The notes under the pieces are model-generated. The model made no database searches, was not told the origin of the DNA, and was given only the letters and a program-made list of their open reading frames with translations. This document shows, in pieces, positions 4,001 through 57,075 of a DNA stretch of 64,000 nt (the stretch's first letter is position 1; each line of letters starts with the position of its first letter). Source of the DNA: Heliocidaris erythrogramma (taxonomy: Eukaryota; Echinodermata; Echinoidea; Camarodonta; Echinometridae). The stretch is from assembly GCA_025617745.1 (NCBI GenBank), contig CM046866.1:13089725-13153724 (forward strand), written 5' to 3'. The position numbers were made by a program, and so were the translations under genes.

Positions 4001-7000
4001 CAACAATAATTTTTTTTTTCTTTCAGTGCTACATGGTTCTAATAAGATGTAATGTCTTTGAAAACAATATACATTGTTAGGAATTTTGTTGAAAAGTTGA
4101 CAAAATTGCCAATGTTGATTTTAAAAAACGCAATGATTTTAAGTCTCTCAATGTGTTGCCAATGTAAGGATATTAAAGTTTATTTGCATTTTTGAAATTC
4201 CGGGCATCAAACGCAATATGGTAATGCATTTGCTCTTTCTACATATGCATCCGGTATATTTTGTATCAAAACAGTTATTGTGTCGAACCACAAAATGTGG
4301 TCCATTGCCTCAAAAGGTTTTTCCCTTGACGGTTGTAACAAAATGTTCCCTGTTTTTTTTTTTTTTTGTACAGATCGTTGATAGGTGCAGGAGTCAGCCA
4401 GTTCAAATCTGAGACAATGAAATTTGCTCTGCCATTCTTTGAAAGATTTCGAAATCCAGAAGATAGGTAAGTTGTTGATACAGTCTTGTGTCTCCTATCC
4501 CACACTCTTCCTTCTACCTTCTCTCTTCCTCCTTCTCCCTATCAAAGAAGTCATTAGTGTAAATTTACGGCCATGATGCTTATATTATGATACAATACAT
4601 ACATGAATAGTTAGTTTATGTATATTTTGCATACAGTAACAATATTCTTATCTCAGAGATATCATAACATATAATTTTTTATAATAATTATATTTTATAT
4701 AATTTTTTATTTCTCAAGAAATGTGTGAAAATAACTTCCTAAAGCTTCATATTCTTTAGATTCTGAAAAATAAAGCATATTCTATAGTGTTATTTTTCAT
4801 TTTCTAGTGCATTGGAGTTCAAATAAAGATTTTTTTGGCCTACAAAATTTTTGTTTGTCAGATCTTAAAGGTTCAGATTTTTCTTGATTTTTATGCCTCC
4901 GCCCACCGAAGGTGGGTGCCGGAGGCATTATGTTTTCGGGTTGTCCGTCCGTCCGTCCGTGCGTGCGTCCGTCCGTGCGTCCGTCCGTCCGTGCGTCCGT
5001 CCGTCCGTCCGTCCGTGCGTCCGTCCGTGTGTCCGTCCGTCCCACTTCTCGTTACCGCGATATCTGAAGAATCATTTGAGGTAGGAACCTCAAACTTGGT
5101 ACTAGTATGTATCCCCATACGAAGATGAACTGATTAGATTTTGGGGTAAGTAGGTCAAAGGTCAGAGGTCACAGAGGTCAATTTACATGAAATTACATAA
5201 GAATTCTTGGTTTTTAGCACCGTTACCACGATATCTCAAGAACTATCTGAGGTGAGAACTTCAAACTTGGTACCAGTATGTATCCCCATAGAAAGATGAA
5301 CTGATTAGATTTTGGGGTAAGTAGGTCAAAGGTCAGAGGTCACAGAGGTCAATTTACATGAAATTACATGGAATTACTGGTTTTTAGCACCGTTACCGCG
5401 ATATCTCAAGAACTATCTGAGGTGAGAACTTCAAACTTGGTACCAGTATGTATCCCCATACGAAGATGAACTGATTAGATTTTGGGGTAAGTAGGTCAAA
5501 GGTCAGAGGTCACAGAGGTCAATTTACATGAAATTACATAAGAATTCTTGGTTTTTAGCACCGTTACCACGATATCTCAAGAACTATCTGAGGTGAGAAC
5601 TTCAAACTTGGTACCAGTATGTATCCCCATAGAAAGATGAACTGATTAGATTTTGGGGTAAGTAGGTCAAAGGTCAGAGGTCACAGAGGTCAATTTACAT
5701 GAAATTACATGGAATTACTGGTTTTTAGCACCGTTACCGCGATATCTCAAGAACTATCTGAGGTGAGAACTTCAAACTTGGTACCAGTATGTATCCCCAT
5801 AGAAAGATGAACTGATTAGATTTTGGGGTAAGTAGGTCAAAGGTCAGAGGTCACAGAGGTCAATTTACCTGAAATTACATAAAAATTCTTGGTTTTTAGC
5901 ACCGTTACCACGATATCTCGAACTGTTTGAGGTAAGAACTTCAAACTTGGTACTAGTATGTTACCGTATACGAAGATGAACTGATTAGATTTTGGGGTAG
6001 GTAGGTCAAAGTTCAAAGGTCACAGAGGTCAATTTACATGAAATTACATGGAATTAGTGGTTTTTACCACCGTTACCGCGATATCTCAAGAACTATCTGA
6101 GGTGAGAACTTCAAACTTGGTACCAGTATGCATACCCATATAAAGATGAACTGATTAGATTTTGGGGTAAGTAGGTCAAAGGTCAGAGGTTACAGAAGTC
6201 AATTTACATAAAATTACATGAAATTACTGGTTTTTAGCCTTGTTATCAAATATTTCTAGTTTTATATGAAAATGAAATGAAATAAATTTTTCTGTCTCCT
6301 GTGCATTTTAAGTGAAAAGATTTGTCATTTTGTTGGACCAGTCCTTTTTAGAGTGTACATGTATGCCATACATTTCCAATCTGGTGATGGCGGAGGCATA
6401 AATTCCAACCGCGCGCGGTCGAATATTCATCTAGTTATTTTATGCCATACACTCAGTTTTAGTCCCTCAGATACATGTATGTAAAACGTTAATGTTTAGA
6501 ACATCTGTGACATTGCCAAAATTCTGCATTGTCATAGTATCAGAAATAAAAAGAATTGGAAAAACAAAGAATGAATGATGTTTATATTTCATTTTGACAT
6601 GGTTTGTTTGTGAAGGCGTAACTTCATATCAGCTGGAGCAGCAGCAGGTGTGGCATCAGCCTTCGGTGCTCCTGTAGGTGGTCTCCTGTTTGCCATGGAA
6701 GAAGTCTCCTCATTCTGGAGTATGAAGCTCTCCTGGCAGGTAAGATATAATAGTCCATTTTTTTTGAATTAGCCAATCAGGCTCCGTATTAAGTGTAACT
6801 TTATTTACCTAGGCCAATCAGGCTCCACCTTGAATGCAAAATTTGCCACCTATCAGTTAATATCAACGCAAGTTTTCTAAAAGTGGTCTCCTTTCTGCCA
6901 TGGAAGAATTCTCACCATTCTGAAGTATGAAATTCTGGCAGGTGCGATTTGTTTGTGATTGAGTGCAACAGGCCCGTCGGAGCTGCTACGGCTGGTACGG

Positions 7001-25000: not shown

Positions 25001-28000
25001 TCCCGGCATACGTCATCATCTCTGGAGTTGAAGTTGGTGAGGTGATGCTCATTAGAATTAAATAACAGGTGGAAAACAGAAGAAGACCCTCAACAAGTAG
25101 GAAAACAGCAAAGCAATGTGCGTCATTTATGAGTTCCTTACGTTCACATGTGTGAAAACAATGAAGGGAAGAAAAAGAAAAAAGCACAGACTACAATTGA
25201 CCTTCATTGAGTTTATGAGAGTTGTAGAGATTCTTAAATGACGTAGAGTGACGTAAATCTAGTATTATGCCCTTTGTGGAATCTGTACGAGCACTGCAAA
25301 GTCAATTTTTATGCCTCCGCCCACCGAAGGTGGGTGCCGGAGCCATTTTGTTTCCGGGTTGTCCGTCCGTCTGTCTGTCCCATTTTCTATTTCACGATAA
25401 CTTAAGAACTATTTGGCGTATCACCTTCAGACTTTGCTCATGTATACATATGGGAGGGGCAATAGTCTGATTATTTACATTTTTAGGTCATGAGGTCAAA
25501 GGTCACAGGTCATTGCGTATATGAAAATGGCTTGTTGTGTTTTCACATTAGCTTAAGAACCATTTGGTGAATCAACTTCAAACTTGGCTCATGTATGCAT
25601 ATGATAGAGTTGATTATCTGATTAGATTTTGGGGCCACTAGGTCAAAGGTCACAGGTCATTGTATGTACGAAAATGGATTGTTCTTGTTATAACTTAAGA
25701 ACCATTTGGCAAATCAATTTCAAACTTGGCTCATGTATGCATAAGGGAGTGATGATGATCTGAGTTGATTTTGGGGTTCAAAGGTCACAAAGGTCACAGA
25801 GGTCAGCATTATATACCTGGAAATAGATGGTTCTCACAGTAACTTGAGCACAGTTGGACATTTTAACTTCAAACTTGGTACATGTATGCATACTAGGGTG
25901 ACAGTGATCTGATTAGATTAAATTCAGCCATATGGCAACTCTGCTTGTGATCTATAACCCCATGAACCACGTGGCATATCAGCTTTAACGAGTGATAAAA
26001 AATTTTATCAAATTTTTTTTCGAACAAATTTTTTAAAAATCAACATAATTGTGCAAAATATTTCTGATCTGGCAAAGGCGGAGGCATAAATTTTGACTGC
26101 GCGCAGTCGCGAATTCATCTAGTTTCCTCCTGCATTTCTTTTGCAGTGTGACTCAAAGGTCATGAATGTAATAATCTCCAGAGTCGTAATAGTAAGAGGA
26201 TACACCATGATTATGTTAAACTTTTGGATGTAGTGAAATAGTTTTCCTGAAAATTTCTTTGTAAAATTGGGACTTGGGATACAAAACTAAGGAAAATGAG
26301 GAAAATGAAATGCTGTAGCAGACAACCACCATCATTCTGAATTATTTTTCACCCTTCGTTAGCGTATTTTTCGACTTGAAGAGGGCAAAACTTTACATAG
26401 GCTCGTGATTGTATTTTTGCTAGTTATTGATTAAAATCAAAATATGTATTGGAGAGAGATGGGGAGAGAGGAAGGGAGAAAGAAAGAGTGGGAATGGAGA
26501 GAAAGAGAGACAGACGGAGACAGAAACAGAGAAATCTATATGATCTCTTACATCCTGATGCAAAAAAGAACAACTAAATAAAAATAAACATGAGAAAGCA
26601 AAGAGAAAGAAAGAGAAATTACGGTAAATGTAAGAGTCCAATGAAGGTGAAATACATGTATTGCTAAAGATTTTTTTTGAACGCAAACCAAAATAAGGTT
26701 GGATTATCAATTGAGTAGAATGAATGGATTCGTCTATGTAGTCAGTTAGTAGAGAATAGCAAGGTTGAAAGTTTGTTTTGTTTTGATGCAGGATGTAAAT
26801 CTTCTTCTTTAAGTGGCTGTTGATTCTTACTCTTAAAGGGAAATCCAACCTTAATAGCAAGTTGCTTTGAAAGAAAGAGGAAAAATCAGAGAGGCAGATT
26901 GGTGAAAGTTTGAACGAAATCGGACAAGCAATAAGAAAGTTATGAATTTTTGAAAGTTGTAATCACTGTACATATGGGAATTTCTAATTGGCCGAATATG
27001 TAATGTCACTGTGATGTAGCTGTGGACAACTCCTCCATTCGCTCCAACACACAAAATGACTAAAATGTCACTTTTTTCAAAATGTATTACTTGGTAGGAT
27101 CTTTTTCTTTCATGAGAACTTATAACAATATGTTATCTCCAATATATTTTGAGTACTGCCCTGAGGGTAAAAGCGCCTCGAAGACAACCGCAAATTAATG
27201 ATATTTTTGTGCATGACAAACGGAAGAGTTGTCCACAAAAATGTCACAATCGACTCACCAAATTGCCAATTTGAGGTTCGCATAGATGTAGTGATCCATT
27301 TTTCAAACATCCATAACTTTCTTAGTCCTTGTCCGATTTCTTTCAAACTTTCACCTTCCTGTTTTTCTTATTTTTATGCTTTCACACAAATCATCTTATT
27401 ACCAAGGTTGGATTGCACTTTAATTTCTTTACTCTTTTTCAACCAAAGGAAACTGGTAATGATGTGGGCTGACTTATTTGTCTGTACTTACATTTCATGT
27501 CTTTATTATTTTTTTTTCAACGTAAGGACACAGGTATTGATGTGAGGCTAATCCGGATATCATGAAGATGATTTCAAGAATCATGTGATCACATTTGAAA
27601 GAAACTATTTCAAAGCAATTGGGAAAGGTTGATGATGTAGTAAATCATCAAAACAATCTTGTTGAAGGTCACATACACTGCACACAAAAATGTATATATA
27701 GGACTACACATGTGTGTGGCATGAAAGTTTGGTCCAAACTTATCAGCTGTTTTTCTTCATATTTGAATTAGGGGGGAATTTGAAGAGCAATTCTTCTAAA
27801 CTTACATGAAAAGAATGAGAAAGCTCACAAATTACTTTCCAAATTTACCAGAACGCATTCTTCTCCTTAACATCAGAATGAAAAGGAAAACCTTCATTTA
27901 GCATTAGCTTTGTCAGTCAAATATTGGACACACTTTATTACAGTTCCTCACAATGTCATTATACACATTTCCAACCATGGAATCTTTGAAATGACACAAG

Positions 28001-29838: not shown

Positions 29839-30713
29839 GTATTCTGCTCTCAAAATGTAAGACAAAAAATGTAAAAATAGCAAAGCATTACAATCACTAC
29901 TACCACTGGCATTGCTGTAGCCACCATCATCAACTGCAGCAGCAACATCATCATCGTCTTCCCCCTCTTGCTCCTGATCCTGCTCCTCCTGCTCCCCCTC
30001 CTCCTGCTCCTCCTGTTCCTCCTGCTCCTGCTCCTGCTCCCCCTCCTCCTGCTCCTGTTCCTGCTCCTCCTGCTCCTGCTCCTGCTCCTGCTCATGTTCC
30101 TCCTGCTCCACCTGCTCCTGCTCCTGCTCCTCCTGCTCCTGCTCCTGCTCATGTTCCTCCTGCTCCTCCTGCTCCTGCTCCTGCTCATGTTCCTCCTGCT
30201 CCTCCTGCTCCTGTATTCTGCTCTCAAAATGTAAGACAATAGCAAAGCATTACAATCACTACTACCACTGGCATTGCTGTAGCCACCATCATCAACTGCA
30301 GCAGCAACATCATCATCATCTTCCCCCTCCTGCTCCTGATCCTGCTCCTGCTCCCCCTGCTCCTCCTGCTCCCCCTGCTCCTCCTGCTCCTCCTGTTCCT
30401 CCTGCTCCTCCTGTTCCTCTTGCTCCTCCTGTTCCTCCTGCTCCTCCTGCTCCTCCTCCTGCTCCTCCTCCTGCTCCTGCTCATGTTCCTCCTGCTCCTG
30501 CTCCTCCTGCTCCTCCTGCTCCTCCTGCTGCTCCTGCTCCTGCTCCTGCTCATGTTCCTCCTGCTCCTCCTGCTCCTGTTCCTCCTGCTCCCCCTGCTCC
30601 TGCTCCTGTTCCTGCTCCTGCTCCTCCTGCTCCTGCTCCTCCTGCTCCTGTTCCTGCTCCCCCTCCTGCTCCCCTCCTGCTCTTCCTCCTCCTCCCCCTC
30701 CCCTCCCCCTCAT
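29839..30713. repeat. Long CTCCTG-type repeat in a segmental tandem duplication
   Basis: Two blocks of ctcctg/ctcctcctg units (about 29955-30212 and 30330-30710) each follow the same unique lead: gtattctgctctcaaaatgt, caaagcattacaatcactac and tcaactgcagcagcaac (starting at 29839 and 30213). A ~375 bp segment was therefore duplicated with its repeat. Long open frames exist on both strands (Leu-rich on +, Glu/Gln-rich on -) because the repeat lacks stop codons. The minus-strand frame crosses both copies, but its lead resembles no known protein and I do not call a gene. Confidence 0.85.
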
Positions 30714-41580: not shown

Positions 41581-41629
41581 GACTACCGAATCATGAGACG
41601 ACATTTTTTTATTTATTTTAATTTATTTT

Positions 41630-42482
41630 ATTTTTTGCGTGTTATGTCTATGGAAGATGATTTTTTTTTCGAATGATGAATCTACATGACATCGTTCTCT
41701 GAGCAGTATCTCAGTTATTTTTGGTCTATTTCCTTCCAGATTTTAATATGTTGTAGCTGAGACTATAAGCTTTTTATTAGTAAGCCCTCCAATTTTTGAT
41801 CAGATGTCGGGATCATGCCCAATTTTGAACTACCAAATGGGATTTGAGAATCCGTTTTTCGTTTACGTGTTATCTCTATGGGAAATATTTTGGTCTATTG
41901 GTCAAAGCACTTGGCTCCCATGCAGGTGACCCAGGTTCGATCCCCGGTGGGTCCATAACAATTTTTTTTTTTTTTTTGCTTTTTTTTGCCTGTCATTTTA
42001 CCATCCTCTTCGACTATTGTAACATAAAAAATCACAAATCATGTAATAAACTGCCATATTTTCCGTATTATGTCTATTAGAAAGTAGTGTACAGTAGTTT
42101 GTGTACAACCCTACGGAAATTGTGATTTCCTGTCCTGCATTAGAGCTATATGGTTAATCTCCCAAGTATCCTGTATCATCATCATTATTATCATCACCAT
42201 CATGATCATCATCGCTATTATTATATCATCATCATCATCATTCTATCATTATAATCATCATAATCACCATTATCATCACCATAAACATTTTACAATGACC
42301 GTTACACATTTTGCTACATTCCTGTCCTCACGAAACATCTCCATTCATGGTATTCTTGACTGATGACATCCTATCTTCAGTTTACCATTTCCCAATTATT
42401 ATGATCATCCTGATTACAATCATGATCGTACAAATTGAAAGACAGATCACCTAATTCGTCCTCATGACGAATTAAATTCTAG
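41630..42482 (+). mobile_element. HINE-like array, unit 0 (A type, 5'-truncated)
   Basis: It begins in the middle of the unit (gcgtgttatgtctatggaag) after a T-rich tract. It then has the tRNA-like segment, a short ATC microsatellite (about 42175-42290) and the 3' terminus aattcgtcctcatgacgaat with ctag at the end. It is very similar to units 4 and 7. Confidence 0.85.
41881..41955 (+). other. tRNA-Gly(CCC)-like segment, unit 0
   Basis: It has an A-box-like tggtctattggtcaaagca and a B box ggttcgatcccc. The anticodon-arm position reads ggctcccatgcagg (loop CTCCCAT, anticodon CCC). The 3' end is gtgggtcca. The 5' half of the acceptor stem does not pair, so a mature tRNA is unlikely. It may work as a pol III promoter. 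Confidence 0.65.
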
Positions 42483-44920
42483 TTTACTTTATTTCTTTAT
42501 ATTTGTTTCTTTATTAGGTGGTCTGTCATTTATGACAGACCACCTATTAATTTTGTCAAGATTTTCTTTATTAGGTGGTCTGTCATTTATGACAGACCTC
42601 CTTTTAATTTTGTCAGAATCTTCTTTATTATTTATTTTTATAACAAATTTTTGTTCCCACCAAATCTCAAAATCGGCCAGGTCAATATCATCGAGTTTCA
42701 TGTCATGTATGAGGTCAATCATGGACATGGTCCATTAAGCTTTTGGAGGTCATCAGGTCATCGTGACGTCATCAAGACGCCATTTTGTAAATTTACAAGA
42801 TCGATTATATCTTCATAATCGATCATCAAAAATCAACTATATTCACATCACATAAACTTCACTTGACAGGTCATCAAGTCATATCTTCACAGGTCATCTA
42901 GAGGTCAGGACGTGCGCGTACGCGCGCGTCAAAATTTAAAAATGCTCAAAATCACGTAGGATCAAGTCTGCACACGTTTCAGGTCATTTTGAGCATTTCA
43001 AAAATTTGCGCGCGCACACGGGTGCGCGCGCGTTTTCCCGTATTCACTATGACGGAGCCTAAAATCGCCGTTTTTGCTTGTGTACTCGCATAGAACACAA
43101 AATTCTGAGCAATTTCATACCTTTTCTATCTTTCTACGACAATTAATAAGGAAATTACCGTCCGTCAAAGTTTGCAGCACGCGCGGGGGTGATCCCTCAC
43201 TATAGGCCATATATGGGCAAAAACATGCCTATACAAAATTCACTGTAGCTCGTTAGATAGTCCGTTGACCCCCAAATTTTTTGTCATCATCAGGTAGGGT
43301 ATGAATCATAGATGTCATTTCATGTATCATTTGACCCTTATAAACATTATGACGTCATCAAAATGGCGCCAGAAGTCAAAATTTCCATTTTCATGTTTTG
43401 ACGTCATCACATTTATGCAAATTTGGCTCTAGATTCGTAATTATATTTTGTTTTTCGCCCAGATTTTAATATGTTGTAGCTGAGGCAATTTCCTACAAAA
43501 TCGGTTGCCACCATTTTTCATTTTGATGACGTCATCACAGTGAAATTTTCAATTAAAGATGCCATGTCAGAATTTTCCCTATTTGCGTGTTATGTCTATG
43601 GAAGATGATTTTTTTTCGAATCATGAATCTACATGACATTATTCTCTGAGCTGTATCTCAGTTGTTTTTAGTCTATTTTCTTCCAGATTTTAGTATGTTA
43701 TAGCTGAGACTATAAGCTTTTATAAGTGTGGTCTCCAATTTTTGATCAGATGTCGGGATCATGCCCAATTTTTCACTACAAAATGTGATTTGAGAATCCC
43801 GTTTTTCGTTTACGTGTTATCTCTATGGGAAATATTTTGGTATATTGGTCAAAGCACTTGCCTCTCACTCCGGTGACCCAGGTTCGATCCCCGGTGGGTC
43901 CATTAAATTTTTTTTTTTGCTTCTTTTTGCCTTTCATTTTACCATCTTCTTCGACTATTATATCATATACAATCACAAACCATGTACTAAACTGCCTTAT
44001 TTTGCGTGTTTTGTCTATTGAAAAGTAGTGTGCAGTAGTTTGTGTACAACCCTTTGGAAATTTCTCAAAATTGGCTTAGTCAATTATCTTCAAATTTTCG
44101 TCAGTCATCAGTCCTAATAAGGTCAAGTTCGCGCATCTTTTTCAAGGTCATCAGATTATCGTGACGTCATCCAGGCGCCATTTTGTAAAAATCAACTTAT
44201 GGTCGTATCTTCATAACGAAATGTGATTTCTCTTTCATATTTGGCATGGTTAAGGTCACTGTCATTGCAGTCATGGTCATCACCATTATCATCACCATCA
44301 CCATCACCATCATCATATCATCATCATGATTATCATCAACATCATTATCATCATCACTGTCATGATATTCATGATGATGATGATGATGATAATGCTGATT
44401 AACATCAACATCATTATCATCATTACTGTCATGATGATATAATGATCATCATCATGATTATCAACATCATTATCATCATCACTGTCATGATGATATTCTT
44501 GATGATGATTATCATCATCATTATCATCAACATCATTATCATCATCACTGTCATGATATTCATGATGATGATGATGATGATTAACATCAAAATCATTATC
44601 ATCATCACTGTCATGATGATATAATGCTCATCAACATCATTATCATCATCACTGTCATGATATGATCATCATCATTATCATCATCACTGTCATGATATTC
44701 ATGATGATGATTATCATCAACATCATCACATCTTCCAATGACCGTTTCACACATTTTTCTACATTCCTGTCCTCAAGAAGCATCTCCATGCGTGGCATTC
44801 TTGACTTCCTATCTTCAGTTTAGTATTTCCCCATTATTATGATCATCCTGATTACAATCATGATCATACAAATTGAAAGACAGACCACCTAATTCGTCCT
44901 CATGACGAATTAAATTCTAG
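42483..44920 (+). mobile_element. HINE-like array, unit 1 (B type)
   Basis: It opens with two successive 5' hairpin modules (aggtggtctgtcatttatga, mirrored by gacagaccacct; at about 42514-42545 and 42571-42605). Then come conserved non-coding sequence, five intact TGACGTCA palindromes, a tRNA-like segment (43829-43902), a long ATC/GAT block (about 44280-44735) and the hairpin-CTAG 3' end. Its GC-rich hairpin differs from that of the other units. Confidence 0.85.
43829..43902 (+). other. tRNA-like segment, unit 1
   Basis: tggtatattggtcaaagc and ggttcgatccccggtgg are kept. The anticodon arm (cctctcactccggtg) no longer pairs well, as in the other B units. Confidence 0.55.
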
Positions 44921-46725
44921 TTTTTATTTTTAATATTTCTTCTTTTTATAGCAAATGTTTGTTCCCATCAAATCTCAAAATCGGCCAGGTCAATATCATC
45001 GAGTTTCATGTCATGTATGAGGTCAATCATGGACATGGTCATCTAAGCTTTTGGAGGTCATCAGGTCATCGTGACGTTATCAAGACGCCATTTTGTAAAT
45101 TTACAAGATCGATTATATCTTCATAATCGATCATTAAAAATAAACTATATTCACATCACATAAACTTCAAATGACGAGTCATCAAGAAATGTCCTCACAG
45201 GTCATCTAGAGGTCAGGACGTGCGCGTACGCGCGCGTCAAAATTTAAAAATGCTCAAAATCACGTAGGATCAAGTCTGCACACGTTTCAGGTCATTTTGA
45301 GCATTTCAAAAATGTCCGTGCGTAAGTGTCCGCGCGCGCGTTTTACGCGCGCGCAAGTCGTAACTAACGTTAAAACACTGTTTTTTCGATTGATTTGCAA
45401 TTTTGACACTTTTCTTCATCATTTCCATCAACTTGGAATCAATTTCAATCAATAATAAGGTCGTACGGGCGCGTCAAACTTCAAAATCTGTGCGCGCATC
45501 TATGGCGAAAATAACGTAAAAACGTGCAAAAACATGCCTCTACAAAATTAACTCTAGCTCTTTAAATAGTCCATAAATCCCCCAATTTTTTGTCATCATC
45601 AGGTAGGGTATGAATCATAGATATGATTTCATGTATCATTTGACCCTTATAAACATTATGACGTCATCAAAATGGCACCAGAAATCCAAATTTCCATTTT
45701 TCATGTTTTGACGTCATCACATTTATGCAAATTTGGCTCTAGATTCGTAATTATTGGTCTTTTTTCGCCCAGATTTTGATATGTCATAGCTGAGGCAATT
45801 TCCTACAAAATTAGTTGCCACCATTTTTCATTTTGATGACGTCATCACAGTGAAATTTTCAATTAAAGACGCCATGTCAGAATTTTCCCTATTTGCGTGT
45901 TATGTCTATGGAAGATGACTTTTTTTTGAATCATGAATCTACATGACATCGTTCTCTGAGCAGTATCTCAGTTATTTTTGGTCTATTTTCTTCCAGATTT
46001 TAATATGTTGTAGCTGAGACTATAAGCTTTTACAAGTGTGGTCTCCAATTTTTGATCAAATGTCGGGATCATGCCCAATTTTTCAGTACAAAATGTGATT
46101 TGAGAATCCCGTTTTCGTTTACGTGTTATCTCTATGGGAAATATTCTGGTCTATCGGTAAAGCACATGACTACCATGGTCAAGGTACCTGGTTCGATCCC
46201 CGGGGCCGATTTTTTTTGGTTTTTTTTTTGCTTCTTTTTGCCTGTCATTTTACAATCCTCTTCGACTAGTATAACATAAAAAATCACAAATCATGTAATA
46301 AACTGCCTTATTTTCCCGTATTATGTCTATTAGAAAGTAGTGTGCAGTAGTTTTGTGTACAACCCTATGGAAATTGTGATTTCCTGTCCTGTATTAGAGC
46401 TAAGGGGTTAATCTGCCAAGTATCCTGTATCATCATCATTATTATCATCACCGTCCTGATCATCATCGCTATTATATCATCGCCATCATATATCATTATA
46501 ATCATCATAATCTCCATTATCATCATCACCATAATCATTTTATAATGACCGTTACACATTTTGCTACATTCCCGTCCTCAAGAAGGACCTCCATTCATGG
46601 CATTCTTGACATCCTATCTTCAGTTTAGTATTTCCCCATTATTATGATCATCCTGATTACAATCATGATCGTACAAATTGAAGGACAGACCACCTAATTC
46701 GTCCTCATGACGAATTAAATTCTAG
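44921..46725 (+). mobile_element. HINE-like array, unit 2 (A type)
   Basis: It starts directly after the CTAG of unit 1 without a 5' hairpin module. It holds three intact TGACGTCA sites, the GC hairpin with loop ...gttttac..., a diverged tRNA-like segment (46138-46209), a short ATC block and the standard 3' terminus. Unit 3 starts immediately at the next bases (ctag|ttaggtggtc). Confidence 0.85.
46138..46209 (+). other. tRNA-like segment, unit 2 (diverged)
   Basis: tggtctatcggtaaagca and ggttcgatccccgg are present. The middle (catgactaccatggtcaag) differs from the other A units, and the 3' end is ggccg rather than gggtcca. Confidence 0.5.
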
Positions 46726-48870
46726 TTAGGTGGTCTGTCGATATCGACAGATCACCTATTAATTTTGTCAGAATTTTCTTCTTTATTTTTATTATTTCTT
46801 CTTTTTATTACAAATTGTTGTTCCCACCAAATCTCAAAATCGGCCATGTCAATGTCATCGCGTTTCATGTCATGTATGAGGTCAATCATGTACATGGTCC
46901 ATTAAGCTTTTGGAGGTCATCAGGTCATCGTGACGTCATCAAGACGCCATTTTGTAAATTTACAAGATCGATTATATCTTCATAATCGATCATCAAATAT
47001 CAACTATATTCACATCACATAAACTTCACATGACGGGTCATCAATTCATGACCTCACAGGTCATCTAGAGGTCAGGACGTGCGCGTACGCGCGCGTCAAA
47101 ATTTAAAAATGCTCAAAATAACGTAGGATCAAGTCTGCATACGTTTCAGGTCATTTTGAGCATTTCAAAATTGTCCGTGCGTAAGCGTCCGCGCGCGCGT
47201 TTTACGCGCGTGCAAGTCGTAAATAACGTTAAAGCGCTGTTTTTTTTATTGATTTGCAATCCTGACACTTTTCTTCATCATTTCCATCAACTTGGAATCA
47301 ATTTCAATCAATAATAAAGTCGTACGGGCGCGTCAAAGTTCAAAATCCGTGCGCGCGTCTATGGCGAAAATAACGTAAAAACGTGCAAAAACATGCCTCT
47401 ACAAAATTAACTCTAGCTCTTTAAATAGTCCATTAACCCCCAATTTTTTTTCATCATCAGGTAGGGTATGAATCATAGATATGATTTCATGTATCATTTG
47501 ACCCTTATAAACATTATCACGTCATCAAAATGGCGCCAGAATTCAAAATTTCCATTTTTCATGTTTTGACGTCATCACATTTATGCAAATTTGGCTCTCA
47601 ATTCGTAATTATTGGTCGTTTTTCGTCCAGATTTTAATATGTTGTAGCTGAGGCAATTTCCTACAAAATCAGTATCCACCATTTTTCATTTTGATGACGT
47701 CATCACAGTGAAACTTTCAATTAAAGATGCCATGTCAGAATTTTCCCTATTTGCGTGTTATGTCTATGGAAGATGATTTTTTTAAATCATGAATCTACAT
47801 AACATTGTTCTCTGAGCTGTATCTCAGTTGTTTTTGGTCCATTTTCTTCCAGATTTTAGTATGTTATAGCTGAGACTATAAGCTTTTATAAGTGTGGTCT
47901 CCAATTTTTGATCAGATGTCGGGATCATCCCCAATTTTTTACTACAAAATGTGATTTGAGAATCCCGATTTCGTTTACGTGTTATCTCTATGGGAAATGT
48001 TTTGGTATATTGGTCAAAGCACTTGCCTCTCACTCCGGTGACCCAGGTTCGATTCCCGGAGGGTCCATTAATTTTTTTTTTTTTTTGCTTCTTTTTGCCT
48101 TTCATTTTAACATCTTGTTCGACTATTATAACATAAGCAATCACAAACCACGTAATAAACTGCCTTATTTTGAGTGTTATGTCGATTAGAAAGTAGTGTG
48201 CAGTGGTTTATGTATAACCCTATTGAAAATCTGATTCCCTGACGTGTATTAAAGCTATCCTGCAATATCATTAGTCCTATTTGATATCACAATTTCTCAA
48301 AATGATAATGATGTTGATGATAATCATGATGATGATCATGATTATCATCAACATCATTATCATCATCACTGTCACGATATTCATGATGATGATTATCCTC
48401 AACATCATTATCATCATCACTGTTATGATATTCATGATGATGCTGATGATTATCATCAACTTCATTATCATCACTGTCATGATGATATTCATGATGATGA
48501 TGATGATGATGATTATCAACATCATTATCATCAGCACTGTCATGATATAATGATCATCATCATGATTATCTTCAACATCATTATCATCATCACTGTCATG
48601 ATGATATTCATGATGATGATGATGATATAATATCATCACCGTCATGATCATCATTGCTATTATTATTGTCATCACCATCATTATATCACCTTCATCATGA
48701 TAATCATCACCATTATCATGATTGTTATCTTGCACAAATATTATCACATCTTCCAATGACCGTTCCACACATTTTCTGCATTCCTGTCCTCAAGAAGCAT
48801 CTCCATGCGTGGCAATCTTGACTTGAAAGACAGACCACCTAATTCGTCCTCATGACGAATTAAATTCTAG
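46726..48870 (+). mobile_element. HINE-like array, unit 3 (B type)
   Basis: It begins with one 5' hairpin module (aggtggtctgtcgatatcga, mirrored by gacagatcacct). It has three intact TGACGTCA sites, the GC hairpin with loop gttttac, a tRNA-like segment (47994-48066), a long ATC/GAT block (about 48300-48735) and a 3' hairpin-CTAG end. Part of the region before the 3' end is missing relative to unit 1. Confidence 0.85.
47994..48066 (+). other. tRNA-like segment, unit 3
   Basis: tggtatattggtcaaagc and ggttcgattcccgg are present, with a B-type unpaired anticodon arm. Confidence 0.55.
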
Positions 48871-50651
48871 TTACAAATTCTTGTTCCCAATAAATCTCAA
48901 AATCGGCCAGGTCAATATCATCGAGTTTCATGTCATGTATGAGGTCAATCATGGACATGGTCCATTAAGCTTTTGGAGGTCATCAGGTCATCGTGACGTC
49001 ATCAAGACGCCATTTTGTAAATTTACAAGATTGATTATATCTTCATAATCGATAATCAAATATCAACTATATTCACATCACATAAACTTCACATGACGGG
49101 TCATCAAGTCATGTCCTCACAGGTCATCTAGAGGTCAGGACGTGCGCGTACGCGCGCGTCAAAATTTAAAAATGCTCAAAATCACGTAGGATCAAGTCTG
49201 CACACGTTTCAGGTCATTTTGAGCATTTCAAAAATGTCCGTGCGTAAGCGTCCGCGCGCGCGCTTTACGCGCGCGCAAGTCGTAAATAACGTTAAAACGC
49301 TGTTTTTTCGATTGATTTCCAATCCTGACACTTTTCTTCATCATTTCCATCAACTTGGAATCAATTTTGATCAATAATAAGGTCGTACGGGCGCGTCAAA
49401 GTTCAAAATCCGTGCGCGCATCTATGGCGAAAATAACGTAAAAACGTGCAAAAACATGCCTCTACAAAATTAACTCTAGCTCTTTAAATAGTCCACAAAC
49501 CCCCTAATTTTTTGTCATCATCAGGTAGGGTATGAATCACAGATTTCATTTCATGTATCATTTGACCCTTATAAACATTATGATGTCATCAAAATGGCGC
49601 CAGAAATCAAAATTTCCATTTTTCATGTTTTGACGTCATCACATTTATGCAAATTTAGCTCTAGATTCGTAATTATTGGTCGTTTTTCGCCCAGATTTTG
49701 ATATGTTATAGCTGAGACAATTCTCTACAAGATGAGTTGCCACCGTTTTCCATTTTGATGACGTAATCATATTGAAATTTTCAATTAAAAACGACATGTC
49801 AGAATTTCCCCTTTTTGCGTGTTATGTCTATGGAAGATGATTTTTTTTCGAATCATGAATCTACATGACATCGTTCTCTGAGCAGTATCTCAGTTATTTT
49901 TGGTCTATTTCCTTCCAGATTTTAATATGTTGTAGCTGAGACTATAAGCTTTTATTAGTAAGCCCTCCAATTTTTGATCAGATGTCGGGATCATGCTCAA
50001 TTTTGAACTACCAAATGGGATTTGAGAATCCCGTTTTTCGTTTACGTGTTATCTCTATGGGAAATATTTTGGTCTATTGGTCAAAGCACTTGCCTCCCAT
50101 GCAGGTGACCCAGGTTCGATCCCCGGTGGGTCCATAACAATTTTTTTTTTGTTGCTTTTTTTTGCCTGTCATTTTACCATTCTCTTCGACTATTGTAACA
50201 TAAAAAATCACAAATCATGTAATAAACTGCCATATTTTCCGTATTATGTCTATTAGAAAGTAGTGTACAGTAGTTTGTGTACAACCCTACGGAAATTGTG
50301 ATTTCCTGTCCTGTATTAGAGCTATATGGTTAATCTCCCAAGTATCCTGTATCATCATCATTATTATCATCACCATCATGATCATCATCGCTATTATTAT
50401 ATCATCATCATCATTCTATCATTATAATCATCATAATCACCATTATCATCATCACCATAAACATTTTACAATGACCGTTACACATTTTGCTACATTCCTG
50501 TCCTCACGAAACATCTCCATTCATGGTATTCTTGACATCCTATCTTCAGTTTACCATTTCCCCATTATTATGATCATCCTGATTACAATCATGATCGTAC
50601 AAATTGAAAGACAGATCACCTAATTCGTCCTCATGACGAATTAAATTCTAG
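48871..50651 (+). mobile_element. HINE-like array, unit 4 (A type)
   Basis: No 5' hairpin module: the unit starts at ttacaaattcttgttccc right after the previous CTAG. Two intact TGACGTCA sites, GC hairpin loop gctttac, tRNA-Gly-like segment with anticodon CCC (50060-50134), short ATC block, 3' hairpin-CTAG end. It is nearly the same as unit 7. Confidence 0.85.
50060..50134 (+). other. tRNA-Gly(CCC)-like segment, unit 4
   Basis: The arm cacttgc-ctcccat-gcaggtg gives seven base pairs (one G-T) around loop CTCCCAT, with intact A- and B-box positions (tggtctattgg, ggttcgatcccc). Confidence 0.65.
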
Positions 50652-52902
50652 TTTTATTTATTTTTTTATTTTTTTTTTTATTTTTTTTTAATTTATTTAT
50701 TAGGTGGTCTGTCATTTATGACAGACCTCCTTTTAATTTTGTCAAGATTTTTCTTTATTTTTAATATTTCTTCTTTTTATTACAAATGTTTGTTCCCACC
50801 AAATCTCAAAATCAGCCAGGTCAATATCATCGAGTTTCATGTCATGTATGAGGTCAATCATGGACATGGTCCATTAAGCTTTTGGAGGTTATCAGGTCAT
50901 CGTGACGTCATCAAGACGCCATTTTGTAAATTTTCAAGATCGATTATATCTTCATAATCGATCATCAAAAATCAACCATATTTACATCACATAAACTTCA
51001 CATGGCGGGTCATCAAGTCATGTCCTCACAGGTCATCTAGAGGTCAGGACGTGCGCGTACGCGCGCGTCAAAATTTAAAAATGCTCAAAATCACGTAGGA
51101 TCAAGTCTGCACACGTTTCAGGTCATTTTGAGCATTTCAAAAATGTCCGTGCGTAAGCGTCCGCGCGCGCGTAAAACGCGCGCGCAAGTCTTAAATAACG
51201 TTAAAACGCTGTTTTTTCGATTGATTTGCAATCCTGACACTTTTCTTCATCATTTCCATCAACTCGGAATCAATTTCATTCAATAATAAGGTCGTACGGG
51301 TGCGTCAAAGTTCAAAATCCGTGCGCGCATCTATGGTGAAAATAACGTAAAAACGTGCAAAAACATGCCTCTACAAAATTAACTCTAGCTCTTTAAATAG
51401 TCCACAAACCCCCAATTATTTTGTCATCATCAGGTAGGGTATGAATCGTAGATTTCATTTCATGTATCATTTGATCCTCATAAACATTATGACGTCATCA
51501 AAATGGCGCCAGAATTCAAAATTTCCATTTTTCATGTTTGCACGTCGTCACATTTATGCAAATTAGGCTCTAGATTCGTAATTATTAGTCGTTTTTCGGC
51601 CAGATTTTAATATGTTGTAGCTGAAGCAATTTCCTACAAAATCAGTCATCACCATATTTCATTTTGATGACGTCATCACAGTGAAATTTTCAATTAAAGA
51701 TGCCAGGTCAGAATTTTCCCTATTTGCGTGTTATGTCTATGGAAGATGATTTTTTTTCGAATCATGAATCTACATGACATTGTTCTCTGAGCTGTATCTC
51801 AGTTGTTTTTGGTCTATTTTCTTCCAGATTTTAGTATGTTATAGCTGAGACTATAAGCTTTTATAAGTGTGGTCTCCAATTTTTAATCAGATGTCGGGAT
51901 CATGCCCAATTTTTCACTACAAAATGGAATTTCAGAATCCCGTTTTTCGTTTACGTGTTATCTCTATGGGAAATGTTTTGGTATATTGGTCAAAGCACTT
52001 GCCTCTCATTCCGGTGACCGAGGTTCGATCCCCGGTGGGTCCATTAAAAAAAATTTTTTTTTTGCTTCTTTTTGCTTTTCATTTTACCATCTTATTCGAC
52101 TATTATAACATAAGTAATCACAAACAAAGTAATAAAATGTCTTATTTTGCATGTTATGTCTATTAGAATGTAGTGTGCAGTAGTTTATGTATAACCCTAT
52201 GGAAAATCTGATTCCCTGAAGTGTATTAAAGCTATCCTGCAATATCATTAGTCCTATTTGATATCACGATTTCTCAAAATGATAATGATGTTGATGATCA
52301 TGATTATCATCAACATCATTATCATCATCACTGTCACGATATTCATGATGATGATTATCCTCAACATCATTATCATCATCACTGTCATGATATTCATGAT
52401 GATGCTGATGATTGTCATCAACTTCATTATCATCACTGTCATGATGATATTCATGATGATGATGATGATGATGATTATCAACATCATTATCATCAGCACT
52501 GTCATGATGATATAATGATCATCATCATGATTATCTTGAACATCATTATCATCATCACTGTCATGATGATATTCATGATGATGATGATGATATAATATCA
52601 TCACCGTGATGATCATCATTGTTATTATTATTGTCATCACCATCATTATATCACCTTCATCATGATAATCATCACCATTATCATGATTGTTATCTTGCAC
52701 AAATATTATCACATCTTCCAATGACCGTTCCACACCTTTTCTACATTCTTGTCCTCAAGAAGCATCTCCATGCGTGGCATTCTTGACTTCCTATCTTCAG
52801 TTTAGTATTTCCCCATTATTATGATCATCCTGATTACAATGATGATCATACCAATTGAAAGACAGACCACCTAATTCGTCCTCATGACGAATTAAATTCT
52901 AG
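50652..52902 (+). mobile_element. HINE-like array, unit 5 (B type)
   Basis: A T-rich lead and one 5' hairpin module (50700-50730), three intact TGACGTCA sites, the GC hairpin with the inverted loop gtaaaac, tRNA-like segment (51969-52043), long ATC/GAT block (about 52280-52700), 3' hairpin-CTAG end. Confidence 0.85.
51969..52043 (+). other. tRNA-like segment, unit 5
   Basis: tggtatattggtcaaagc and aggttcgatccccgg are present, with a B-type arm (cctctcattccggtg). Confidence 0.55.
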
Positions 52903-55187
52903 TTTATTATTATTTTTATTAGGTGAACTGTCGGTATCGACAGATCACCTTTTAGTTTTGTCAAGATTTTTCTTCTTTTTATTAGGTGGTCTGTCGGTAT
53001 CGACAGATCACCTTTTAATTTTGTCAGAATTTTCTTTTTATTTCTTCTCTTTATGACAAATTCTTGTGGCCACCAAATCTCAAAATCGGCCAGGTCAATA
53101 TCATCGAGTTTCATGTCATGTATAAGGTCAATCATGGACATGGTCCATTAAGCTTTTGGAGGTCATCAGGTCATCGTGACGTCATCAAGACGCCATTTTG
53201 TAAATTTACAAGATCGATTATATCTTCATAATCGATCATCAAAAATCAACTATATTCACATCACATAAACTTCACATGACGGGTCATCAAGTCATGTCCT
53301 CACAGGTCATCTAGAGGTCAGGACGTGCGCGTACGCGCGCGTCAAAATTTAAAAATGCTCAAAATCACGTAGGATCAAGTCTGCACACGTTTCAGGTCAT
53401 TTTGAGCATTTCAAAAATGTCCGTGCGTAAGCGTCCGCGCGCGCGTAAAACGCGCGCGCAAGTCTTAAATGACGTTAAAAACGCTGTTTTTTCAATTGAT
53501 TTGCAATCCTGACACTTTTCTTCATCATTTCCATCAACTTGGAATCAATTTCAATCAATAATAAGGTCGTACGGGTGCGTCAAAGTTCAAAATCCGTGCG
53601 CGCATCTATGGTGAAAATAACGTAAAAGCGTGCAAAAACATGCCTCTACAAAATTAACTCTAGCTCTTTAAATAGTCCACAAACCCCCAATTTTGTTGTC
53701 ATCATCAGGTAGGGTATGAATCATAGATTTTATTTCATGTATCATTTGATCCTGATAAACATTATGACGTCATCAAAATGGCGCCAGAATTCGAAATTTC
53801 CATTTTTCATGTTTGCACGTCATCACATTTATGCAAATTAGGCTCTAGATTCGTAATTATTAGTCGTTTTTCAGCCAGATTTTAATATATTGTAGCTGAA
53901 GCAATTTCCTACAAAATCAGTTCACACCATCTTTCATTTTGATGACGTCATCACAGTGAAATTTTCAATTAAAGATGCCATGTCAGAATTTTCCCTATTT
54001 GCGTGTTATGTCTATGGAAGATGATTTTTTTTCGAATCATGAATCTACATGACATTGTTCTCTGAGCTGTATCTCAGTTGTTTTTAGTCCATTTTCTTCC
54101 AGATTTTAGTATGTTATAGCTGAGACTATAAGCTTTCATAAGTGTCGTCTCCAATTTTTGATCAGATGTCGGGATCATGCCCAATTTTTCCCTACAAAAT
54201 GGGATTTGAGAATCACGTTTTTCGTTTACGTGTTATCTCTATTGGAAATATTTTGGTGTATTGGTCAAAGCACTTGCCTCTCACTCGGTGACCCAGGTTC
54301 GATTCCCGGTGGGGCTATTAAAAAAAAATTTTTTTTTGCTTCTTTTTGCCTTTCATTTTAACATCTTGTTCGACTATTTTAACATAAGCAATCACAAACC
54401 AAGTAATAAAATGCCTTATTTTGCGTGTTATGTCTATTAGAAAGTAGTGTGCAGTAGTTTATGTATAACCCTATGGAAAATCTGATTCCGTGAAGTGTAT
54501 TAAAGCTATCCTGCAATATCATTAGTCCTATTTGATATCACAATTTCTCAAAATGATAATGATGTTGATGATAATCATGATGATGATCATGATTATCATC
54601 AACATCATTATCATCATCACTGTCATGATATTCATGTTGATGATTATCCTCAACATCATTATCATCATCACTGTCATGATATTCATGATGATGCTGATGA
54701 TTATCATCAACTTCATTATCAGCACTGTCATGATGATATTCATGATGATGATGATTATCAACATCATTATCATCAGCACTGTCATGATGATATAATGATC
54801 ATCATCATGATTATCTTCAACATCATTATCATCATCACTGTCATGATGATATTCATGATGATGATGATGATGATATAATATCATCACCGTCATGATCATC
54901 ATTGCTATTATTATTGTCATCACCATCATTATATCACCTTCATCATGATAATCATCACCATTATCATGATTGTTATCTTGCACAAAATTAATATCACATC
55001 TTCCAATGACCGTTTCACACATTTTCTACATTCCTGTCCTCAAGAAGCATCTCCATGCGTGGCATTCTTGACTTCCTATCTTCAGTTTAGTATTTCCCCA
55101 TTATTATGATCATCCTGATTACAATCATGATCATACCAATTGAAAGACAGACCACCTAATTCGTCCTCATGACGAATTAAATTCTAG
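52903..55187 (+). mobile_element. HINE-like array, unit 6 (B type)
   Basis: Two 5' hairpin modules in a row (about 52918-52952 and 52983-53014; aggtgaactgtcggtatcga type), three intact TGACGTCA sites, GC hairpin loop gtaaaac, tRNA-like segment (54243-54317), long ATC/GAT block (about 54550-54975), 3' hairpin-CTAG end. This is the only place where two B units are adjacent. Confidence 0.85.
54243..54317 (+). other. tRNA-like segment, unit 6
   Basis: tggtgtattggtcaaagc and ggttcgattcccgg are present. One base is missing in the middle arm (ctctcactcggtg), and the end is ggggcta. Confidence 0.5.
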
Positions 55188-56988
55188 TTTATTTCTTCTT
55201 TTTATAACAAATTCTTGTGGCCACCATATCTCAAAATCGGCCAGGTCACTATCATCGAGTTTCATGTCATGTATGAGGTCAATCATGGACATGATCCATT
55301 AAGCTTTTGGAGGTCATCAGGTCATCGTGACGTCATCAAGACGCCATTTTGTAAATTTTCAAGATCGATTATATCTTCATAATCGATCATCAAAAATCAA
55401 CCATATTCACATCACAAAAACTTCACATGACGGGTCATCAAGTCATGTCCTCACAGGTCATCTAGAGGTCAGGACGTGCGCGTACGCGCGCGTCAAAATT
55501 TAAAAATGCTCAAAATCAAGTAGGATCAAGTCTGCACACGTTTCAGGTCATTTTCAGCATTTCAAAAATGTTCGTGCGTAAGCGTCCGCGCGCGCGTAAA
55601 ACGCGCGCGCAAGTCGTAAATAACGTTAAAACGCTGTTTTTTCGATTGATTTGCAATTCTGACACTTTTTTTCATCATTTCCATCAACTTGGAATCAATT
55701 TCAATCAATAATAAGGTCGTACGGGCGCGTCAAACTTCAAAATCCGTGCGCGCATCTATGGCGAAAATAATGTAAAAACGTGCAAAAACATGCCTCTACA
55801 AAATTAACTCTAGCTCTTTAAATAGTCCACAAACCCCCCAATTTTTTTTCATCATCAGGTAGGGTATGAATCATAGATTTCATTTCATGTATCATTTGAC
55901 CCTTATAAACATTATGACGTCATCAAAATGGCGCCAGAATTCAAAATTTCCATTTTGCATGTTTTGACGTCATCACATTCATGGAAATTTGGCTCTGGAT
56001 TCGTAATTATTGGTCGTTTTTCACCCAGATTTTAATATGTTGTAGCTGAGGCAATTTCCTACCAAATCAGTTGCCGCCATTTTTCATTTGATGACGTCAT
56101 CATATTGAAATTTTCAATTAAAAACGACATGTCAGAATTTCCCCTTTTTGCGTGTTATGTCTATGGAAGATGATTTTTTTTCGAATCATGAATCTACATG
56201 ACATCGTTCTCTGAGCAGTATCTCAGTTATTTTTGGTCTATTTCCTTCCAGATTTTAATATTTTGTAGCTGAGACTATAAGCTTTTATTAGTAAGCCCTC
56301 CAATTTTTGATCAGATGTCGGGATCATGCCCAATTTTGAACTACCAAATGGGATTTGAGAATCCCGTTTTTCGTTTACGTGTTATCTCTATGGGAAATAT
56401 TTTGGTCTATTGGTCAAAGCACTTGCCTCCCATGCAGGTGACCCAGGTTCGATCCCCGGTGGGTCCATAACAATTTTTTTTTTTTTGCTTTTTTTTTGCC
56501 TGTCATTTTACCATCCTCTTCGACTATTGTAACATAAAAAATCACAAATCATGTAATAAACTGCCATATTTTCCGTATTATGTCTATTAGAAAGTAGTGT
56601 ACAGTAGTTTGTGTACAACCCTACGGAAATTGTGATTTCCTGTCCTGTATTAGAGCTATATGGTTAATCTCCCAAGTATCCTGTATCATCATCATTATTA
56701 TCATCACCATCATGATCATCATCGCTATTATTATATCATCATCATCATCATTCTATCATTATAATCATCATAATCACCATTATCATCATCACCATAAACA
56801 TTTTACAATGACCGTTGCACATTTTGCTACATTCCTGTCCTCACGAAACATCTCCATTCATGGTATTCTTGACATCCTATCTTCAGTTTACCATTTCCCC
56901 ATTATTATAATCATCCTGATTACAATCATGATCGTACAAATTGAAAGACAGATCACCTAATTCGTCCTCATGACGAATTAAATTCTAG
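55188..56988 (+). mobile_element. HINE-like array, unit 7 (A type, last)
   Basis: No 5' hairpin module, four intact TGACGTCA sites, GC hairpin loop gtaaaac, tRNA-Gly-like segment with anticodon CCC (56393-56466), short ATC block, 3' hairpin-CTAG end. It is followed by a long T-rich tract and a G run (57060-57075), where the array ends. Confidence 0.85.
56393..56466 (+). other. tRNA-Gly(CCC)-like segment, unit 7
   Basis: Same as unit 4: tggtctattggtcaaagc, arm cacttgc-ctcccat-gcaggtg, and ggttcgatccccggtgg. Confidence 0.65.
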
Positions 56989-57075
56989 TTTTATTTATTT
57001 ATTTATTTTTTTTATTTTTTTTTATTTTTTTTTTTTTTATTTATTTTTTTTTTTTTTTTTTGGGGGGGGGGGGGG
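56989..57075. repeat. T-rich tract ending in a poly-G run
   Basis: About 70 bases of ttta/tttt sequence and then about 15 G, right after the last CTAG of the array. Confidence 0.9.

Follow-up and report, generated by a model that had tools for sequence, protein, structure and literature searches.

Serial, orientation-locked self-insertion as the probable origin of a head-to-tail array of HINE-like elements in Heliocidaris erythrogramma

How a dispersed transposon becomes a tandem satellite is an open question, to which the common answers for Helitrons are rolling-circle slippage and crossing-over. The question is raised here by a 64,000-nucleotide stretch of the sea urchin Heliocidaris erythrogramma (assembly GCA_025617745.1, contig CM046866.1, positions 13,089,725 to 13,153,724; hereafter the window), which holds a 15-kb head-to-tail array of elements that look like HINEs, i.e., non-autonomous Helentrons, by their layout. 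The evidence points to another route, namely orientation-locked self-insertion, followed by crossing-over in a sister array (contig C1). It consists of broken leaders and their unbroken counterparts, dispersed kin, genome-wide counts and an orientation bias. We give a probability of roughly 0.85 to the reading that the window array is a HINE stack produced by serial, orientation-locked self-insertion and then crossing-over.

The hairpin AATTCGTCCTCATGACGAATT is present in eight exact copies in the window (starts 42453, 44891, 46696, 48841, 50622, 52873, 55158 and 56959), where 100 shuffles gave an expected count of 0, and in all eight units it is directly followed by AAATTCTAG and then TT. The eight ends (42453-56988) share a single orientation. 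An original prediction, made from the letters of the window alone, had described this common end of hairpin, ctag and t, and the CTAG boundary is indeed common to all units. It delimits a truncated unit (U0) and seven further units (U1 to U7) of 1.78-2.44 kb. The predicted A-B-A-B-A-B-B-A order was borne out by the ATC repeats, which are a short microsatellite in type A (U0, U2, U4, U7) and a long ATC-rich repeat in type B (U1, U3, U5, U6), with a period of 51 bp in U3, U5 and U6 and of 3 in U1. Seven units do lie beyond the partial one, but the description of them as full did not hold, as U2, U4 and U7 lack the 5' subterminal inverted repeat (subTIR) module and U1 and U6 carry two. For comparison, an uninterrupted copy (e.g., L012, L014 or L015) consists of one such module, a T/C-rich leader of ~45 nt and a body. 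The window contains no N bases and its whole units differ by at least 3%, so the array is not one sequence repeated by the assembler. In the following, C1 to C9 and C16 denote genome contigs, the other labels from C10 to C29 units of the array on contig C1, and L with a number fetched loci. The features of the array are as follows.

41604-41636, no strand, T-rich tract at the left edge of the array, next to the truncated U0
41630-42482, + strand, U0, type A, 853 bp, truncated at its 5' side, with hairpin and CTAG end
42453-42482, + strand, 3' hairpin AATTCGTCCTCATGACGAATT with AAATTCTAG, the first of eight
42483-44920, + strand, U1, a divergent member of type B that sits within the leader of U2
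42515-42545, + strand, 5' subTIR module c1 before U1, with the tail GTCAAGATTTTCTTTA, which forms the left half of the interrupted U2 leader
42572-42602, + strand, 5' subTIR module c2, U1's own 5' end
44921-46725, + strand, U2, type A', whose head is the right half of its own leader; nearest kin solo L012 and C1 unit C28
46726-48870, + strand, U3, type B
46727-46757, + strand, 5' subTIR module of U3
48871-50651, + strand, U4, type A, with its leader interrupted at A^TTACAAAT; closest kin solos L015/L014 and C1 unit C29
50652-52902, + strand, U5, type B
50701-50731, + strand, 5' subTIR module of U5, preceded by a T-rich tract of ~50 nt that resembles the right flank
52903-55187, + strand, U6, type B, apparently nested in the leader of U7
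52920-52950, + strand, 5' subTIR module c1 before U6, assigned by inference to U7 (left half of its broken leader)
52983-53013, + strand, 5' subTIR module c2, U6's own 5' end
55188-56988, + strand, U7, type A, with kin on C16, C3 and C1
56403-56459, + strand, tRNA-like segment in U7, with B box GGTTCGATCCCCGG and then a T run
56989-57061, no strand, T-rich flank to the right of the array, on the target side

A run of 14 G (57062-57075), either natural or an assembly blemish, lies directly behind the T-rich right flank.

The 5' subTIR modules are unevenly distributed over the window units (U1, two; U2, none; U3, one; U4, none; U5, one; U6, two; U7, none), and each of the units with two modules stands immediately before one that has none. 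The module-less units U2, U4 and U7 begin at differing points of the leader, right behind the CTAG of the preceding unit, and the TT site at which the downstream leader is interrupted varies among the seven window junctions. When the tail of U1's first module was joined to the head of U2, all of the resulting 63 bases matched the intact leader at C1:19760575. Since this rejoined leader is identical to that of an uninterrupted copy, U1 sits inside the leader of U2. The same picture at the other pair of this kind suggests that U6 was inserted in the leader of U7, provided that the first module before U6 belongs to U7. Locus L013 holds an element of U4 type whose module is that of the U4-type solos (L014, L015). 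On one side of it stand modules with another tail, on the other a TTCAGT-subfamily body that lacks a module; the tail of the flanking modules, CTTAATTTCGTCAG, is that of other-subfamily copies (L005, L011; similar in L017). Broken and unbroken leaders thus allow single insertion steps to be read from the sequence. When modules and ends are read as balanced brackets, the agreement is suggestive but not strict, with exceptions at L013, L017 and C29.

Hundreds of junctions in one genome make target choice and the order of steps testable by counting. The 1.06 Gb genome (26 contigs) yielded 4,844 matches to the hairpin pattern, compared to six for a reversed-pattern control. A TCTAG end followed by TT and fused to the remainder of a leader was found at 233 places, tandem duplicates included, with end and leader in the same orientation and with 0 matches for the reversed-pattern control; among the 100 fusions listed, which lie on C1 to C9, 11 are in the C1 array. 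The leader pattern itself has 987 matches. Among the 100 listed, all on contig C1, 27 were broken by a fusion when read by eye (8 of these 27 lie in the C1 array), and one further leader was broken by the 3' end of another family. For 69 of the 100 fusion remainders listed, the sequence is an exact suffix of one of 49 intact leaders; the base before the break is A in 44 cases, T in 13 and C in four, with eight ambiguous. A therefore precedes the break in 44 of 61 unambiguous cases, versus 198 of the 821 TT sites in leaders (T, 473; C, 150). Orientation is one-way for the eight window ends and for all 31 hairpins of the C1 stretch, and only one candidate for an inverted fusion was found genome-wide versus the 233 direct ones. 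Random choice of ATT by 4,844 insertions would place 0.4-8.5 of them in the 987 leaders, depending on the T-richness required of the site. Leaders of this family also hold 3' ends of another family (C1:22515477) and of another subfamily (L018), so the leader is a target beyond its own kind.

The kinship of the units was assessed next to that of copies elsewhere. The 14 C1 loci retrieved for hairpins that stand alone or almost alone include dispersed copies of both types, and a further array of 31 hairpins lies on the same contig; both solo copies and another array, for which a genome search had been proposed, were therefore found, and the suggestion that a dispersed transposon has become a satellite-like array holds. 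Trees of the 5' and 3' halves, made without nine near-duplicate C1 units (C10, C12, C18-C20, C22-C25) and without rows lacking the anchor sequences, rejected the window units as one clade in the approximately unbiased test (p-AU 5.5e-58 for the 5' half, 7 versus 32 rows; 3.5e-73 for the 3' half, 8 versus 26 rows). U2, U4 and U7 each have nearer kin elsewhere in the genome than in one another: solo L012 and C1 unit C28 cluster with U2, solos L015/L014 and unit C29 with U4, and L035 and C14 with U7. Over the 3' half, 2 of 829 positions separate U4 from L015 and 6 of 829 separate it from U7, and U7 and C14 differ at 3 of 832. The proposal that U0, U4 and U7 are much closer to each other than to U2 applies to their 3' halves, where they are 0.8-1.5% (alignment columns 1080-1600) and 0.3-1.0% (columns 2080-2495) apart and 6.9-9.9% from U2. 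It does not extend to the 5' half, where U4 and U7 differ by 5.7%, inside the 3.6-7.0% range of all U2-U7 pairs. In a careful tree of 20 rows picked as A-type kin, a clade of U0, U4 and U7 was rejected (p 0.008).

The U6/U7 junction occurs at 15 places (including that of the window and four in the C1 array), with varied unit types upstream and downstream. U7-like bodies stand at five of the 14 others (L028-L030 on C1, L031 on C3 and L035 on C16), only 0.2-0.8% from U7 over ~1450 bp; the units upstream of them differ from U6 by 6.6% (L031), 10.2% (L028-L030) and 32.6% (L035, a value that partly reflects unlike ATC repeats) over ~530-590 bp. At the remaining nine junctions, downstream bodies are 3.5-7.9% from U7. 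A U6-U7 dimer moving as a unit was rejected, as the downstream bodies are near-identical while the upstream units differ.

The array on C1 (656-731 kb), whose 31 hairpins share one orientation, adds a second process. It contains three four-unit blocks of 7,768-7,771 bp, giving a period of 7.77 kb, and blocks a and c differ at just 5 of 7,767 positions. Block b differs from block a at 27 positions, 24 of which fall in the first 500 columns, a crossover-like pattern. Such higher-order repeats (multi-unit blocks of high identity) are present in the C1 array and absent from the window. This true tandem duplication indicates that crossing-over acts on arrays begun by insertion. At its right end, the C1 array shows four modules and then four 3' ends.

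Following the reading we favour, a Helentron enzyme (RepHel from a Helentron elsewhere) would insert a single strand; we infer the source of the enzyme, the single-stranded intermediate and the order of events alike. The genome holds 103 matches to Helitron_like_N (PF14214), many in long open frames, so the machinery exists. New copies would insert at TT, mostly behind A (A^TT), on the T-rich strand, and the leader of a resident copy would offer A^TT sites mostly on one strand. With a target read on one strand, a copy landing in the leader or T-rich flank of an older copy would point the same way, and because each arrival would bring a fresh leader, the locus would grow head to tail. The A/B alternation may then reflect members of two dispersed subfamilies arriving in succession, for instance U1 in the leader of U2 and U6 in that of U7. 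Later homologous exchange would trim and mix the units and, in the larger C1 array, yield real higher-order repeats.

Several observations weigh against this account. Some of the 233 fusions are products of tandem duplication, and at least one (C1:22515477) involves the end of another family. The ratio of one inverted to 233 direct fusions is not exact, as the inverted pattern was the stricter of the two, and a deletion may account for the lone inverted match. The 0.4-8.5 expected at random are calculated from the ATT site density of this window alone. At the level of single junctions, the join of the first module before U6 with U7 departs from the intact leader of L012/C17 (TTTATTTATTTCTTC versus TTTATTTCTTTC), and the module of U4 is missing, which a single left-end deletion may explain; as a guess, the same deletion may also have truncated U0. 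None of the four modules at the right end of the C1 array resembled, by eye, the U4-type solo module expected for C29. Modules can also be in surplus, with two before one 3' end in L017 and three before one A unit in L013. For Fusarium Helitrons, composite elements that carry two 5' ends have been proposed (PMC5148889), and such elements could explain the surplus modules, for instance those of two-module solos like L017. Among the trees, a quick one of the 3' half did not reject a clade of U0, U4 and U7 (p-AU 0.60), and the tree constrained to this clade was better by 7.8 log-likelihood units. In the 5' half, U6 is the sister of U5 (support 99), and local exchange or duplication between the two is possible. 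Distance in this half also grows with unit spacing (r=0.40, permutation p=0.010), and together these two findings make some exchange between neighbours likely. Finally, no autonomous partner with the ends of the family was found by the PF14214 search and inspection of one 5.35-kb stretch (L042) between two RepHel matches.

Among other explanations, the one that survives best is side-by-side insertion into a shared T-rich or (TTA)n target, just behind a resident CTAG, with the leader never entered and some starts truncated at the 5' side. At several C1 junctions, CTAG and TT(ATT)n do run straight into an intact module, several solos lie in ATT-rich targets, and U7-type bodies with the same 5' start stand behind different upstream units on C1, C3 and C16 and in the window. 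However, insertion of this kind leaves unexplained why two-module units precede module-less ones and why halves of leaders rejoin to intact leaders, and we consider it unlikely as the origin of the array. Growth by copying of A-B dimers, favoured in the original prediction, would require a single origin of the pair, from which unequal crossing-over then produced further copies. The A/B order fits this, as do the near-identical 7.77-kb blocks of the C1 array with their crossover-like switch, the sister relation of U5 and U6 and the rise of distance with spacing in the 5' half. Conversely, the three B/A junctions of the window (U1/U2, U3/U4 and U6/U7) lie at different leader sites, and U2, U4 and U7 each have closer kin elsewhere. 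Copying of multimers was seen in the C1 array, and for the window we regard dimer copying as quite improbable. The rolling-circle concatemer, also raised there, in which the replicase misses the 3' terminator and a multimer is inserted in a single event, deserves very little credence. It would account for the single orientation and common 3' end, and the sources cited report circular intermediates as well as truncated Helitrons in tandem from other groups (PMC5148889, PMC12628747). It nevertheless predicts one sequence and one junction, whereas the seven window junctions differ and the units come from several subfamilies with separate dispersed kin, one clade being rejected; every unit also keeps its 3' end, whereas many of the plant arrays described in PMC12628747 have several 5' ends and one 3' end. 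An assembly artefact that expanded one or two real units is scarcely credible, for although C1 blocks a and c are almost identical and the C1 array contains a stretch of 500 N, the window units are at least 3% apart and the same type of junction recurs at 233 places, those listed being on C1 to C9.

The element class, which had been proposed as Helentron/HINE-like, agrees with the ends, targets and content of the units. Palindromic subTIRs are present at both ends, AGGTGGTCTGTC..GACAGACCACCT at 5' ends (six in the window and more in solos) and GACAGAYCACCT before all eight hairpins; an intact element starts with TTAGGTGGTCTGTC..GACAGACCACCT, the palindromic 5' subTIR, and ends in GACAGACCACCT, hairpin and CTAG. 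According to Thomas et al. 2014 (PMC4067079), as far as the cited text goes, HINE/DINE-1-like Helentrons have palindromic subTIRs of 12-15 bp, with the 5' subTIR ~2-4 nt from the terminus and a 3' palindrome ~8-35 nt from the end, T-rich or TT targets, boundary T strings and internal microsatellites, and they are non-coding. Here, the U1-in-U2 join places the 5' boundary at the TT before AGG, which fits this subTIR distance, and in every unit the hairpin has arms of 8 bp and a distance of 9 nt to the end of CTAG, which fits the 3' palindrome. TT follows the 3' end in all eight window units and at all 12 tabulated solo sites (L014 ends in CTAA), and T makes up 144 of the 240 bases in the first 20 positions of 12 solo flanks, compared to 33% in the loci overall. 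Eight stop-to-stop frames of at least 120 aa occur in the array, seven of them overlapping the ATC-rich repeats and one (127 aa, 47824-48207) outside them, in keeping with a lack of coding capacity. The 5' ends read TTAGGTGGTCTGTC and do not show the TC of canonical Helitrons; the 3' end agrees with the canonical CTRR and hairpin (~11 nt upstream). All eight units further carry the B box GGTTCGATCCCCGG (≤2 mismatches) with a T run. In U7 this segment scored 24.3 bits with the Rfam tRNA model at a relaxed threshold, below the gathering score of 29, and neither ARAGORN nor Rfam at gathering scores gave a match within the window; it is possibly a captured tRNA or the head of a short interspersed nuclear element. 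A scan of viral contigs gave no match to the 3' end of the family.

Other elements of this class were also observed. A solo HINE of another family (window 4891-6434) has a 5' subTIR TTATGCCTCCGCC with a complementary inverted repeat, a GTCC microsatellite, seven 170-bp repeats and the 3' palindrome CCGCGCGCGG before an end of CTAG and TT; its microsatellite and ~170-bp repeats come close to the plan described for Cg_HINE of oysters (PMC7492417). A second solo of that family (25309-26122) has ~142-bp repeats, the 3' palindrome GACTGCGCGCAGTC and the same CTAG and TT end. On C4 (56402096-56420265), four RepHel (PF14214) matches stand on one strand at a spacing of ~5.9 kb, and L042, between two of them, is without AGGTGGTCTGTC ends. 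This spacing suggests that autonomous Helentrons may also stand in tandem. Elsewhere in the window, exons of a CLC-type chloride channel and CBS domain lie on the + strand at ~2.5-16.2 kb, with CLC-7 as the best PDB match of one searched frame, and a 730-bp (CTCCTG)n-like repeat (29965-30695) is open in several frames.

Comparison with known systems, as the cited texts describe them, shows both likeness and difference. With HINE/DINE-1-like elements (PMC4067079) the array units have in common the subTIRs, 3' palindrome, TT target, boundary T strings, microsatellites and absence of coding; unlike them, they mostly end in CTAG and feature a T/C-rich leader, a tRNA-like segment, stacked arrays and a preference for breaks at A before TT. 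The overall layout is also like that of Cg_HINE of the Pacific oyster (PMC7492417), in which, however, satellite-like repeats lie inside the element, whereas here whole elements form the repeat unit. FoHeli of Fusarium oxysporum shows self-insertion and multiple 5' termini with one 3' terminus, and for three tandem Helitron copies in Metarhizium acridum, both insertion into the 5' end and rolling-circle replication were weighed (PMC5148889). These fungal Helitrons resemble the present elements in self-insertion and in the numbers of termini, but the cases described are single ones, compared to 233 fusions in one genome here, strongly biased in orientation and directed at a defined target, the leader. 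Tandem truncated Helitrons of plant centromeres, many with several 5' ends and one 3' end, were explained by loss of the terminator in rolling-circle replication (Xiong et al. 2016, via PMC12628747). They too form head-to-tail rows, whereas all units here keep the 3' end and the 5' modules are displaced. In Drosophila, transposable element dimers arise by insertion-site preference and are a possible substrate for crossing-over (McGurk and Barbash, via PMC12628747); site preference likewise gathers copies here, but the site is borne by the element and tied to one orientation.

Array-scale, orientation-biased Helitron self-insertion was not found in the literature searched, which left most subscription papers outside it and in which fungal self-insertion appears in few cases. 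This suggests that the scale, the orientation bias and the readable single steps are new relative to known self-insertion. A further possibility, which we put forward tentatively and with less than even confidence, is that the leader acts as a self-carried, one-way landing platform that is targeted by its own kind beyond what its T-richness explains (233 fusions versus 0.4-8.5 expected). Each insertion would then make the next target, and the family would turn into directional satellite arrays. If true, dispersed transposons would have a self-propagating way of becoming satellite DNA.

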